A DNA stretch of 42,233 nt from a virus: the IMG/VR virus record IMGVR_UViG_3300043543_000122, positions 1 to 42,233 of that record; one strand, given 5' to 3'. The position numbers were made by a program, and so were the translations under genes. Shown here piece by piece: positions 36,105 to 40,469 of the stretch (the first letter of the stretch is position 1; the number at the start of each line of letters is the position of its first letter). The notes under the pieces are model-generated. The model saw nothing but the letters and a program-made list of their open reading frames with translations. It was not told the origin of the DNA and searched no databases.

Positions 36105-37334
36105 CTACTGTCCACGCCGCCTCCGTTTTGGGCGCGGTGCCTCTTCAGGCTCGTCTCCGTCGCCTGCCTCATCGAACGACGGAGCACCAAGGACATCGGC
36201 TGTTTCTGCATCATCCTCGCCGATGTCCGCCTCAATGGCGGCATCTGACGCGGCGATCGTCATCGCGCCACGCGGAGCTTTCAACTGCGGCTGCTCCCGC
36301 ACGCCGCGGATAGCGAGGGCGATCCTGCTCAGCCCCGACCGAATGCTATAGATTCGGTCGGCAATGGCATCTGCGATGCTGCGTCCACCGCCGATACCCT
36401 CGCCCCACCGGATTGACGACAACACGACGTAGGCTAGACCGGCGCTAGGCATCAGCGGATACATCGCTTCGCCAACACGATCTAGGCCGGGAATAGACTT
36501 GATTCCGGTCGCCGAACTCATCGTCTCCAACGCCACGATGCCGATCGCGCCTCCGAATGCGATCATCGCCATCGTATGCAGCGGGAGCGGTTCGGCGAGA
36601 CACAACACCCTAGTGAGAGCCAGCAAGAACGACAACTCCAGGATCGCCGAAGCAAAAAACGCAATCTCGGGCGGCATGCCACGCGTCACGCCGAAGTAAA
36701 CGCCGGCAGCCCACGTGGAGACCAGCAAAATAGCCTTGAGCGCGTTGCTGGCGTAGTGACCCAGTTCGGCTAGCAAATCTCCTTCACCCTCACGTCGCCA
36801 CGCAACAACAGTGACGACGGCCGGCAAAAGCACCAAACCAGGCAGAAAGCCCGCACCAACGCGGGCGATGTTGATCACCGCGTCCGGGATGGTGACGACA
36901 TAGATTGGCTGACCGGTGGCGTCGTAGCCAACCGGTGGGCTGGTCAGCGTCACGTCCAAACCAACCAACATCACCAAAAGTGGCAACCAAAACAGGAGCG
37001 TGATGATCGCCACCGACCGCACCGGCGCGTGATCGGACAGCATCAATAGCGCTACCATCGCTACCACGACCCCAACGGTTGAAATGGGGGTGAGGATGAC
37101 CATCGGCAGCGGCAGGCCGATGGTCATCGCCAGGCGCGCCACAGATGCGCCTGCGAAGACGGCCGCGGCAATTATGACGACCGCAACGACAATCGGTGCA
37201 GCGATGCGGGCCGCGCCGGCAATTGCGCCGGCGATGCGACGGGCTGCGACGCTGGCCATGTCCCCATGCGCGCCGGGGCCGTCGGGGATATCTGGGATAT
37301 CTGGGATATCCAGATGATCCGGGATATTGTTCAT
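36105..37334 (-). CDS. Polytopic membrane protein
   Basis: This 409-aa protein starts at ATG 37334 (GGAGAAG upstream), 2 bases after the lipoprotein stop. About seven to eight hydrophobic segments lie between 40 and 330 (PIVVAVVIIAAAVFAGAS, VGVVVAMVALLML, IITLLFWLPLLVMLVGL, and so on). The N-terminus has DIPDIPDIPD repeats, and the C-terminus is an acidic then basic cytoplasmic tail (GDGDEPEEAPRPKRRRRG). Large multi-helix membrane proteins are rare in phages. Pairing with a lipoprotein suggests a membrane complex. Function unknown. Confidence 0.75.
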   Translation of the reverse strand: MNNIPDHLDIPDIPDIPDGPGAHGDMASVAARRIAGAIAGAARIAAPIVVAVVIIAAAVFAGASVARLAMTIGLPLPMVILTPISTVGVVVAMVALLMLSDHAPVRSVAIITLLFWLPLLVMLVGLDVTLTSPPVGYDATGQPIYVVTIPDAVINIARVGAGFLPGLVLLPAVVTVVAWRREGEGDLLAELGHYASNALKAILLVSTWAAGVYFGVTRGMPPEIAFFASAILELSFLLALTRVLCLAEPLPLHTMAMIAFGGAIGIVALETMSSATGIKSIPGLDRVGEAMYPLMPSAGLAYVVLSSIRWGEGIGGGRSIADAIADRIYSIRSGLSRIALAIRGVREQPQLKAPRGAMTIAASDAAIEADIGEDDAETADVLGAPSFDEAGDGDEPEEAPRPKRRRRGQ

Positions 37335-37336
37335 TT

Positions 37337-37705
37337 TCACTTCTCCATGCGCCGAGATACCGCCCGGCCGATCCATGTTGCCCAAATCAAGACGAAAATT
37401 ACCCCCAGCAACGCGACAGCGATCCACGTCGGGTCGGCATTCTGACCGCCATATGTGGCGGGTGACTGATCTTCGCCCCGTATATGTTGTTGGTGCAATT
37501 TCTGCTCCGTTGTTGGTGCAATTTCGGATACCGCGGTTGCCAAATCTAGAATGGCCAGTTGGTCGTCGTCCGTTGTTGGTGCAATTTCTGGGGTTGTTGG
37601 TGCAATTTCGGCCCCCAACCTGGCGGAGCCAGGACGGAGAGCGGCCGAGCCGTCGCTGCACCCAACGAGCAGAGCGGCGAGGGAAAGAATGACGAGCCTA
37701 TTCAT
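37337..37705 (-). CDS. Lipoprotein with C-terminal membrane helix
   Basis: This is a 122-aa protein. It starts MNRLVILSLAALLVGCSDGS, a signal peptide with lipobox LVGC (Cys16 would be lipidated). The middle carries three EIAPTT motifs, and near the C-terminus WIAVALLGVIFVLIWATWIG is a membrane helix followed by SRRMEK. Anchored at both ends, it may bridge or organise the membrane protein encoded next. ATG 37705 overlaps the RHH stop by 8 bases. Confidence 0.7.
   Translation of the reverse strand: MNRLVILSLAALLVGCSDGSAALRPGSARLGAEIAPTTPEIAPTTDDDQLAILDLATAVSEIAPTTEQKLHQQHIRGEDQSPATYGGQNADPTWIAVALLGVIFVLIWATWIGRAVSRRMEK
37486..37609. repeat. Four copies of a 17-bp repeat, not all in the same frame
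   Basis: GTTGTTGGTGCAATTTC occurs exactly at 37486-37502, 37509-37525, 37572-37588 and 37593-37609, in two pairs. Three copies read EIAPTT in the lipoprotein, but the first is shifted by 23 bases and reads QKLHQQH. Identity kept across frames suggests the DNA or RNA sequence itself is the functional unit. Confidence 0.85.
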
Positions 37706-37935: not shown

Positions 37936-39261
37936 TCACCCGGATATCATCATCTCCAAGGCCGTCAAACAACTGACTGGGTCGCCGCATCCATCGGCGT
38001 ATACCACTCGCCGTCGGATGTCGTCCGGCCAGTCTGCCAGCACCTTGTGCGTATCGCGGATGCGCGGACACTCCATCTGGTTGCAACCGAACGGCGACAA
38101 CCAGAACACCCGCGGCACAAGGTGGGCGAGGCGCAGGAACGTATCCTCGCCATCGTGATCGGCGGCGATCACAATCGCTCGGATGTTTCGCTGACGGATG
38201 ATCTGCTCGTAGTCCATGTCCGACAATCCGTCGGGCATGTATTCGATCGGATTGCCGTTCGTGTGCGACACGCACACGATGTCACCTTCGCTCAGCGTGC
38301 CGTAACACGCAACGGCAAAGGCGACGACACTTCGAGATAGCCTTCCCATGCTACCCGACACGTCGGGCAGGATGAGCAAAGCCGGGCGTCCTGACTCGCG
38401 TCTGCGGTCGCTCACAGTCCACGACCGCAGATAGCCGGCCGTCTTCGCCGCAACAGCGCGCGTGTTCCATCGCGGGCCCGACCTCGTCTCGCCGTCCAAG
38501 ATCATGCGACGAAACGCGCGGCGCGCACGAGCGATCATCGCGCGGTCAACCTCTGCGTCGGCGAACCGCGCAAGCACGCCGCCGGGCGACGGATCGGGAA
38601 CACGTGACAGCTGCGACAGCGAAATGAAGGAGCGCCGGATGTTTTCCGACGCCGGCGCGCCGTCGCCAGCGGACGGAACGGAATCACACCGTTGCTGAAC
38701 ATCGCTGTCCAGCGCCCCGCTGGTGGCTTCCTCTGACGCGTGCGACGCCGCGTCGAAGGCTGTTTGCCACGCTTGGCCATCCGGCATGCTTTCCTCGCCG
38801 CCGTCGTCGCCCGACGACGAGGCGCTACCCGGATGTTGTTCGGCAATCTCAGAGTCCCGGCCTTGGCCGTTCGAGGACGAATCCTCGCCCTGAATATCAG
38901 GGGTTGACTCAGGATCGCCAGCAGAATCTTGCGACTCTGCTTGGGGTTCGCCATCCCCGGCAGAGGAATCGGTATTCTCACTAGCGTTCGCTAGAGAATC
39001 CGATTCCTTCTGCTCGAGCGCATCCGCGCTCGCCTCTGCTGGCGACGACTCGTCGTCAGCAGGGGCGAGAGGAATGCGCGATAGATAGCTCTGGATTGCG
39101 GGCGTGACGGTCTCGGAAACGTAAGCCCATACATCGCCGCGAGTTGTCACGAACAACTCCACGGTTTGACCGTCAATGACGACGGTCATGTGCTCACGCC
39201 CTGCCATCATCTGCAAGGCGTAGGGCCAACGCGCGGGATTGAGCTTGATAGTTTTACCCAC
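37936..39261 (-). CDS. VWA-domain protein, CobT/NorD-like partner of the MoxR ATPase
   Basis: This is a 441-aa protein. An N-terminal domain (about 1-75) is followed by a long acidic, Ser/Asp/Glu-rich linker (about 75-200), as in CobT. The von Willebrand A domain starts at about 290, with the metal site DVSGSMG (300-306). GTG 39261 has GGAGG just upstream and overlaps the ATPase stop by 8 bases; the longer reading from 39300 is unlikely. MoxR/VWA pairs act as chaperone or metal-insertion machines. In the archaeal virus ATV a similar pair (p618/p892) assists tail development. Confidence 0.82.
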   Translation of the reverse strand: MGKTIKLNPARWPYALQMMAGREHMTVVIDGQTVELFVTTRGDVWAYVSETVTPAIQSYLSRIPLAPADDESSPAEASADALEQKESDSLANASENTDSSAGDGEPQAESQDSAGDPESTPDIQGEDSSSNGQGRDSEIAEQHPGSASSSGDDGGEESMPDGQAWQTAFDAASHASEEATSGALDSDVQQRCDSVPSAGDGAPASENIRRSFISLSQLSRVPDPSPGGVLARFADAEVDRAMIARARRAFRRMILDGETRSGPRWNTRAVAAKTAGYLRSWTVSDRRRESGRPALLILPDVSGSMGRLSRSVVAFAVACYGTLSEGDIVCVSHTNGNPIEYMPDGLSDMDYEQIIRQRNIRAIVIAADHDGEDTFLRLAHLVPRVFWLSPFGCNQMECPRIRDTHKVLADWPDDIRRRVVYADGCGDPVSCLTALEMMISG

Positions 39262-40081
39262 GGCGCCTCCACTCGCCCCAAAGCAGGGCTGAAATATCAC
39301 CCAGCGACTTCAATGCGACTTCGTCCTGGGCATCCTTCAACAGATACCCCCGGACAAGGAGGCGCACATCATCCACGTTGCTCGCCAGTGCCATTCCGCG
39401 TAGGAGCATTGCGCCTTCCTGCAGGGACGGCGACGAGCGGCCGTTTACGCGAATCAGATTCATCGCCTTAACAACGAGCCTGATCGCGCCAACAGGCGCG
39501 CCGGTGGTCTTGCGCAGCACGTCAGCTTCGACCTCTGGCACTAAATACGGCATCTCGTATCGGAAGCACCGCCGCTGGAGCGGCTCGATCAACTCTCTCA
39601 GGCCGTTGCTGGTGATAACCACAGCGAGCTGCTGTTTATTTGCCTGCCACCGCTCGCCGTGGCGGCCGTGGACGGTTCCGCTCTGGAGAAACTCCAGCAA
39701 CAGCGCGTCGCAGTGCTCAGGTGCCTTGTCCCACTCGTCCAGGAGCAGGACAACGTGCGTGCGCCGTGAGGCCAACGTAGCGCGCAGCAACGCGCCGCGC
39801 CGATAGGTCGCGCTCAGCGGCATATCGTGGCCGCCCGCGATAGCCGCGACGCGCGCCGGGTCAACCGCGAGGAACATATCCTCGTCTGACGTCCAGTGAT
39901 GAGCATAGTATTCGACAAGCCGCCCGCCCATGCCCTCAGCGAGGGCACGAGCGAACGACGTTTTACCGACACCGGGTGCGCCGGTGATGATGACAGCGCG
40001 TACGCCGTCATCGTCGCGTTCAGCCAACAGCCGAGCGGCCAAGCGGTCAGATGGGCGGAGGGTATACCAGGGTGCAAACAT
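39254..40081 (-). CDS. MoxR-type AAA+ ATPase
   Basis: This 275-aa protein has Walker A GAPGVGKT (34-41), Walker B LLLDEWDK (112-119), sensor-1 VVITSNG and the arginine region RRCFRYEMP. This is a MoxR/CobS-type AAA+ ring ATPase that remodels partners presented by the VWA protein encoded next. Start ATG 40081 follows the upstream stop by one base; ATG 40117 inside the upstream gene is an alternative. Confidence 0.85.
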   Translation of the reverse strand: MFAPWYTLRPSDRLAARLLAERDDDGVRAVIITGAPGVGKTSFARALAEGMGGRLVEYYAHHWTSDEDMFLAVDPARVAAIAGGHDMPLSATYRRGALLRATLASRRTHVVLLLDEWDKAPEHCDALLLEFLQSGTVHGRHGERWQANKQQLAVVITSNGLRELIEPLQRRCFRYEMPYLVPEVEADVLRKTTGAPVGAIRLVVKAMNLIRVNGRSSPSLQEGAMLLRGMALASNVDDVRLLVRGYLLKDAQDEVALKSLGDISALLWGEWRRRG

Positions 40082-40082
40082 C

Positions 40083-40418
40083 TTAAGCGCGCTTGTATTT
40101 CGCGACGAAATACTCATAGTCTTCGTCTTTCGGCTGAAACTTGCCTTTGTCGCCCGGGTTTGACACCCGGTAGGCTAATTTGCAGATCAGGATTGTCGCC
40201 CTATCTGTAAGTTGCGTAGTGGCACGGCTGACCTCGATCGGAATACCGGAAATCCGCTCGATGTGCTGAGCGGTCTCTGGATAACCGACATAGCTTTGCA
40301 GGTCGCCGCGCCGATAAGCGTCGGCGACTAACCGCGCGAATTCGTCGCGGCTGATCCGCTTGAGGACATACGTTCCCTCGGCTGGCATCATTGCGGAATT
40401 CAATAGAAATGTGGCCAT
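40083..40418 (-). CDS. DUF1874 / AcrIII-1 (viral ring nuclease)-like protein, His replaced by Tyr
   Basis: This is a 111-aa protein with AAGGAGG before ATG 40418. The opening FLLNSAMMPAEGTYVLKRIS and the middle VGYPETAQHIERISGIPIEV, SRATTQL, DRATILICKL follow the DUF1874 (STIV B116) pattern. Known AcrIII-1 members cleave cyclic tetra-adenylate and switch off type III CRISPR immunity using a His in the IGHxxT motif. Here that position is Tyr46 (VGYPET). The usual EGK region is also replaced (NPGDKGKF). It may be a divergent enzyme, a cA4-binding sponge, or have another role. Confidence 0.7.
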   Translation of the reverse strand: MATFLLNSAMMPAEGTYVLKRISRDEFARLVADAYRRGDLQSYVGYPETAQHIERISGIPIEVSRATTQLTDRATILICKLAYRVSNPGDKGKFQPKDEDYEYFVAKYKRA

Positions 40419-40469
40419 TTGTTGCCTCCTTTGTTTCGCCGGCGACGCTGAATACGCCGCCGGCAGCGA

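Follow-up and report, generated by a model that had tools for sequence, protein, structure and literature searches.

What does a phage protein of the DUF1874 family do when tyrosine stands where the catalytic histidine of its relatives is expected? AcrIII-1 from SIRV1 (gp29, 6SCF), AFV3-109 (2J6B) and a THSA-485A phage protein are viral DUF1874 proteins, and the characterised members of this group are ring nucleases for cyclic tetra-adenylate (cA4). The question is raised by P0001, a small protein encoded by virus record IMGVR_UViG_3300043543_000122, the whole of which (42,233 nucleotides) we analysed and refer to as the window. The window also encodes a terminase large subunit, a DnaB helicase and a replication O protein which, together with its origin in a virus record, identifies P0001 as virus-encoded. 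The reading frame begins with ATG and ends, 111 codons later, with TAA (Table 1).

Table 1. Features of the window around the P0001 gene
Feature	Position	Strand	Evidence and remarks
Tyr-type DUF1874 gene P0001, 111 aa	40083..40418	(-)	PF08960 match and predicted fold
AGGAGG ribosome-binding site	40425..40430	(-)	Sequence; 6 nt ahead of the P0001 ATG
Residues 7-12, NSAMMP, beta1-beta2 loop	40383..40400	(-)	Same in most Tyr-clade members; L010 and L086 have NSAVI
Codon 46, TAT (Tyr)	40281..40283	(-)	Alignment; site of AFV3-109 His45 and SIRV1 gp29 His47
Residues 83-91, YRVSNPGDK	40146..40172	(-)	Retains Arg84; N87 in place of Glu; Tyr83 and Lys91 are Tyr-clade-specific
AAA ATPase	39254..40117	(-)	PF07728, 2.1e-9; 7 related phages have a homologue at this place with 87-90% identity
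VWA-like protein, DVSGSMG motif	37936..39300	(-)	Sequence; downstream of AAA; 67-77% identical in 7 related phages
AAA and VWA-like pair	37936-40117		Directly follows DUF1874; 8 phages share the pair
Conserved gene upstream of P0001	40470..41237	(-)	74-77% identical in 7 related phages
Short DNA repeat, several copies	37337-37661		EIAPTT and NCTNN peptides recur in two overlapping frames

Family membership and the position of Tyr46

The original prediction, made from the sequence alone, had P0001 following the DUF1874 pattern, and profile searches bear this out. PF08960 (STIV_B116-like) matches at 34.7 bits (E 2.1e-8; curated cut-off 26) and PHROG 5063 at 1.2e-7, and PF08960 likewise matches all 28 members of our alignment A5 at E <= 0.001. 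An AlphaFold2 model of P0001 reached a pLDDT of 92.3, or 89.8 with an alignment of Tyr-type proteins only, and Foldseek matched both models to 8y7f, 8y7g (with cA4), 6scf, STIV B116 (2j85) and 2j6b, with E values of 1e-8 to 3e-6 and TM scores of about 0.7-0.8. The predicted monomer has the DUF1874 fold; being a single chain, the model does not display the dimer geometry around Tyr46. A LisH_WDR26 Pfam match (16.7 bits against a cut-off of 27) and matches to designed-repeat PDB entries were set aside as chance helix similarity. Separately, several phage proteins of unknown function in BFVD, from Erwinia phages Kwan and phiEaH2, resemble the DUF1874 fold at 4-14% identity and are possibly a multi-copy distant branch.

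The motif around residue 46 of P0001 reads SYVGYPETA. In the phmmer alignment with AFV3-109 (2j6b), Tyr46 pairs with His45 and Arg84 with Arg83. A profile made solely from 20 Tyr-type proteins finds 8y7f (1.8e-11) and 2j6b (7e-11) as well as 2j85 and 6scf, and gives the identical register where the alignment is shown. In both alignments Tyr46 occupies the catalytic His position exactly, as the original prediction had proposed, and the modelled fold matches that of SIRV1 gp29 (6scf). In AFV3-109, His45 stacks on a bound glycerol and forms a hydrogen bond to Glu86 of the other monomer (PMC1796864), and the equivalent His of SIRV1 gp29 and Crn2 is an essential general acid (PMC7293037; PMC12830947; PMC7371418). 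His52, which had been considered as a substitute active-site residue, was rejected: only 10 of the 23 Tyr-type proteins compared have it, and none of their His columns is conserved.

P0001 is a member of PF08960/DUF1874, the family of AcrIII-1 and Crn2. It should not be given either name, since a check showed that it lacks both the catalytic His and the Glu that pairs with it; it may still act on the same signal.

A Tyr-type clade with an altered pocket

Our set of Tyr-type proteins numbers 24 and draws on phages as well as a prophage, a mobile element and a single unassigned contig. Scans of viral contigs yielded 20 relatives of P0001 at 34-72% identity, all with Tyr; they used the N-terminal pattern L[LM]NSAMM, as one of two patterns or alone, which carries no information on position 46. 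When Chloroflexota genomes were searched with Pfam, a search without bias toward His or Tyr, five DUF1874 genes came up: those of G004, G109 and G685 are Tyr-type, those of G228 and G484 His-type; two Chloroflexota Tyr-type rows read NSAVI in place of NSAMM. The His-type rows come mainly from a pattern containing the His, and their number is not an estimate of frequency. An alignment mixing His and Tyr types proved too diverse for scanning, and the prophage protein L010, used as a query in viral contigs, found only one relative that was already known.

In a tree of 42 rows a single branch divides the Tyr from the His types with support of 100/99. Support was 96/80 once residues 43-48 and 80-104 were dropped, and again 100/99 with two more genome rows. 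Position 46 is Tyr in 24 of 24 clade members, over large divergence, which goes well past what chance would give. Among nine close relatives dN/dS is 0.09-0.31, values that are indicative only as dS often exceeds 1, and the P0001 gene is under purifying selection. From these relatives and dN/dS values we rejected an isolated mutation, a pseudogene or a sequencing error as the source of this residue. On the tree, the Tyr type forms a conserved clade separate from 20 His-type proteins. The original prediction had presented a single divergent protein; divergent it is, but not alone, since many uncultivated phages carry members of the conserved subfamily to which it belongs. The Tyr is a trait of that subfamily, and this strengthens the case.

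Much of the pocket has been kept. The conserved residues of AFV3-109 are Asn6, Gly44, Thr48, Arg64 and Arg83 (PMC1796864), and P0001 has all five, as N7, G45, T49, R65 and R84. Across the 24 Tyr-type rows these occur in 24 (N7), 23 (G45), 17 (T49), 24 (R65) and 22 (R84), Thr49 being replaced by Asn in the other seven. The partner of the His behaves differently: a Glu three residues past Arg84, corresponding to AFV3-109 Glu86, is found in 17 of 20 His-type but 1 of 24 Tyr-type proteins, where the position holds D in 14, N in 3 and E in 1, D or N together making up 17 of the 22 rows with a residue there. As residues 87-100 were aligned with gaps, single counts in this stretch are approximate. 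P0001 has Asn87, not Asp. By these alignments the His and its partner Glu were lost together in the Tyr clade.

Other residues have become conserved anew: Y83 (21/24), K91 (21/24), D100 (20/24), E102 (20/24) and K/R80 (23/24), of which Lys91 and Tyr83 are absent from the His clade. The stretch from residue 83 to 91 corresponds to the lid segment 81-93 of AFV3-109, which reads R-[LP]-x-EG in AcrIII-1 as against YRVxDPxxKG in the Tyr type; the alteration of the EGK segment noted in the original prediction is seen in P0001 as R84-V-S-N-P. The beta1-beta2 loop forms the cavity floor of AFV3-109 (PMC1796864). Clade-specific positions did not cluster significantly in the AFV3-109 cavity (3 of the top 12, p 0.34); the beta1-beta2 loop would raise this count, but it overlaps the search pattern L[LM]NSAMM and we do not claim it.

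P0001 thus resembles AcrIII-1 in Pfam family, length, fold (TM about 0.75), the Asn, Gly and two Arg residues and its virus context, and differs from it in the change of His to Tyr, the change of the partner Glu to Asn/Asp and its separate clade. The best structural and profile match of the Tyr type is Crn2, including the Csx1-Crn2 fusion (8Y6Z, 8Y7F, 8Y7G). However, Crn2 has a catalytic His (His495 in Csx1-Crn2) and lies in or with type III loci, and the His-type L011 is found inside a cmr operon, whereas the cellular Tyr-type genes L010 and L086 lie in a prophage and a mobile element, respectively. The YddF family (DUF1874; Bacillus, Vibrio plasmids, ICEs) is of the same family and size, but the YddF-annotated members that we read keep the His. 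On the Vibrio aerogenes plasmid pLMG19650 (L032, 1-906) a YddF/DUF1874 gene adjoins cas1 and is likely Crn2. The PADLOC model PDLC01147, labelled Csx16, matches 20 of the 28 A5 members (best E 9.4e-27), P0001 only at E 0.001; it appears to describe DUF1874-like proteins, so the match is no evidence of Csx16, and the name may mislead annotation.

Gene neighbourhood, distribution and hosts

The probable start codon of the AAA ATPase gene is an ATG 1 nt past the DUF1874 stop (TAAG-ATG, about 40081). The order upstream gene, DUF1874, AAA ATPase, VWA is kept in seven related contigs, some of which have one extra gene between the upstream gene and DUF1874. The VWA-like protein has no match in Pfam, PHROGs or NCBIfam, and the upstream gene none in these or the PDB. 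Similar genes occur at two distant Tyr-type loci, with a VWA gene immediately upstream in L050 (1283-1849) and AAA and DUF2201 genes within about 5 kb in L053 (2526-5912). Elsewhere the neighbours include SSB (L047) and an SNF2 helicase with DNA polymerase A (L048), which suggests that these Tyr-type genes lie in a replication region.

In this analysis Tyr-type genes were seen only in uncultivated viral contigs, a prophage (L010, L083), an integrated element (L086, L091) and a short MAG contig (L005). Of the cellular ones, two lie outside type III loci: L010 belongs to a prophage, and L086 has primase and recombinase genes as neighbours. The L005 contig is uninformative on this point. One contig of 37392 bases (L027/G316) is probably circular or permuted despite its linear class, because its DUF1874 gene is split over both ends (6-143, 37175-37387).

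Among 50,697 deposited phage records, a tblastn search with P0001 gave no match, and four other Tyr-type queries gave distant relatives only or nothing, with no Tyr-type member. The deposited viral proteins that we read have His in 10 of 10 cases (Fnu1, SRV, THSA-485A and seven more), and the seven further ones all have the Glu as well. A published survey that looked for ring nucleases in phages and type III loci dropped hits without conserved residues (PMC12409355), which suggests that surveys of this kind would lose the Tyr branch as false positives. We found no mention of this branch in the literature searched, most subscription papers lying outside that search.

The original prediction also implied that the host may use a cyclic-oligonucleotide defence. 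A Cas10 palm domain over the cut-off and with GGDD is present in all five DUF1874-bearing Chloroflexota genomes, three of them with Tyr-type genes, versus 91 of 301 genomes, giving a chance expectation of 0.30^5 = 0.0025, or 0.028 for the three Tyr-type genomes alone, in a comparison put together post hoc from a small sample with uneven MAG completeness. Strong Cas10 matches alone number 70 of 301, and G685 has only a weaker one. The window terminase found four distant matches (34-43% identity) in the 301 Chloroflexota genomes, too few to name the host. Support for such a defence in the host is modest and indirect. In Chloroflexota genome G228 the His-type DUF1874 gene (Crn2) lies inside a cmr type III-B operon (L082 = G228 C13, 1105-12897), which serves as a check that the DUF1874 family tracks type III systems; a CRISPR-like repeat tract adjoins this operon at about 1105-2460.

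Possible functions of the Tyr-type proteins

The original prediction had suggested a divergent ring nuclease chemistry, a cA4 sponge or a new ligand, and each of these is among the readings weighed here. Our tentative reading, to which we give a rough probability of 0.45, is that P0001 acts in counter-defence, its rebuilt pocket binding or sequestering a cyclic oligoadenylate. By analogy with AFV3-109 and SIRV1 gp29, a P0001 dimer would form a cradle, and this would bind a cyclic oligoadenylate-type signal from the host Cas10, most likely cA4. Without the general-acid His and the partner Glu the ring would not be cut by the known His mechanism; invariant Tyr46 together with Tyr83, Arg84, Lys91 and Arg65 would most likely hold the ligand, and the protein would work mainly by sequestering the signal, with slow cleavage at most. 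Loss of the His alone would leave a binder, because SIRV1 gp29 with His47 changed to Ala has no catalytic activity but still binds cA4 with an affinity of about 25 nM (PMC7213978); the H495A variant of Csx1-Crn2 likewise fails to degrade cA4 (PMC7293037). By sequestering an immune signal the Tyr type would act in the same mode as the phage sponges Tad1, Tad2, Acb2 and Acb4, the last of which has a fold reported as unlike other sponges or nucleotide-binding proteins (PMC11722364). Some points sit less easily with sequestration. Passive binding alone might be expected to let the old His site drift, yet it is Tyr in every member; several Tyr-type contexts (L047, L048) are replication- or recombination-like; the Cas10 association is small-sample and partly post hoc; and the native role of AcrIII-1 itself is contested, as taken up below. 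The fixed Tyr and the new Lys, Tyr, Asp and Glu residues suggest more than passive loss, and such fixation may point to a specific chemical or ligand-recognition role.

That role could be catalytic. RelE is a His-free RNase and offers a comparison for nuclease chemistry based on Tyr. An active ring nuclease, in which Tyr46, set by Asp/Asn87 and acting with Lys91, Arg84 and Arg65, promotes in-line attack by the 2'-OH, is unlikely but credible, and the Tyr46-Asp/Asn87 pair would perhaps replace the His-Glu pair across the dimer. The invariance of Tyr46 would fit, as would the replacement of most Glu residues by a shorter Asp or Asn beside the longer Tyr, and the Tyr-clade-specific Lys91 and Tyr83 are located within, or adjacent to, the segments lining the cavity of AFV3-109 (PMC1796864), although cavity clustering of clade-specific positions was not significant (3/12). 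As a general acid, however, Tyr is weak, and P0001 carries Asn rather than Asp at 87; in the two members whose data we read, mutating the His did away with activity (PMC7293037; PMC7213978).

More doubtful still is a role as a replication or recombination accessory, in which P0001 would bind nucleic acid, or partner the adjacent AAA ATPase and VWA protein, and have no part in counter-defence. The 1-nt spacing to the AAA gene, the AAA-VWA block conserved in eight phages, the comparable genes near DUF1874 in the distant lineages L050 and L053, and the presence of AAA_5 in 6 of 14 Tyr-type versus 1 of 13 His-type records all speak for it. Furthermore, AFV3-109 binds dsDNA weakly (PMC1796864) and acrIII-1 of SIRV shares an operon with a Holliday junction resolvase (PMC11065993). 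Most other Tyr-type loci nevertheless have no AAA or VWA neighbour, some AAA matches being tens of kb away, and the kept cyclic-oligoadenylate cradle residues and the co-occurrence with Cas10 fit signal binding better.

It is quite improbable that the pocket now serves another cyclic nucleotide, such as a CBASS-type signal, instead of cA4. Several sides of the pocket have changed within a conserved fold, and in another phage sponge family the nucleotide that is bound varies between related members (PMC11722364), but the cradle Asn, Gly, Arg and Arg are unchanged and Cas10 is present in all five DUF1874-bearing Chloroflexota genomes, in a search directed at Cas10. A decayed, non-functional relic, for which the lost catalytic His and Glu might be taken to speak, is scarcely credible given dN/dS of 0.09-0.31, a strong ribosome-binding site, an invariant Tyr over deep divergence and newly fixed residues.

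For the family as a whole, we see even odds that the Tyr type is a separate phage counter-defence family and the natural counterpart of the dead His-to-Ala AcrIII-1, acting as a cyclic oligoadenylate sponge or receptor or as a Tyr/Lys/Arg ring nuclease, and missed since the known surveys require the His. The ring-nuclease activity of DUF1874 proteins rests on the catalytic His, and here a whole clade has replaced both it and the Glu with the cradle kept under selection. In this way the Tyr clade may be a natural case of binding uncoupled from cleavage. Even for His-type AcrIII-1 it is disputed whether the protein natively acts as an anti-CRISPR (PMC11065993; a Nature 2025 exchange cited in PMC12751052), and the Tyr clade would offer a direct test of this dispute over what DUF1874 proteins natively do.
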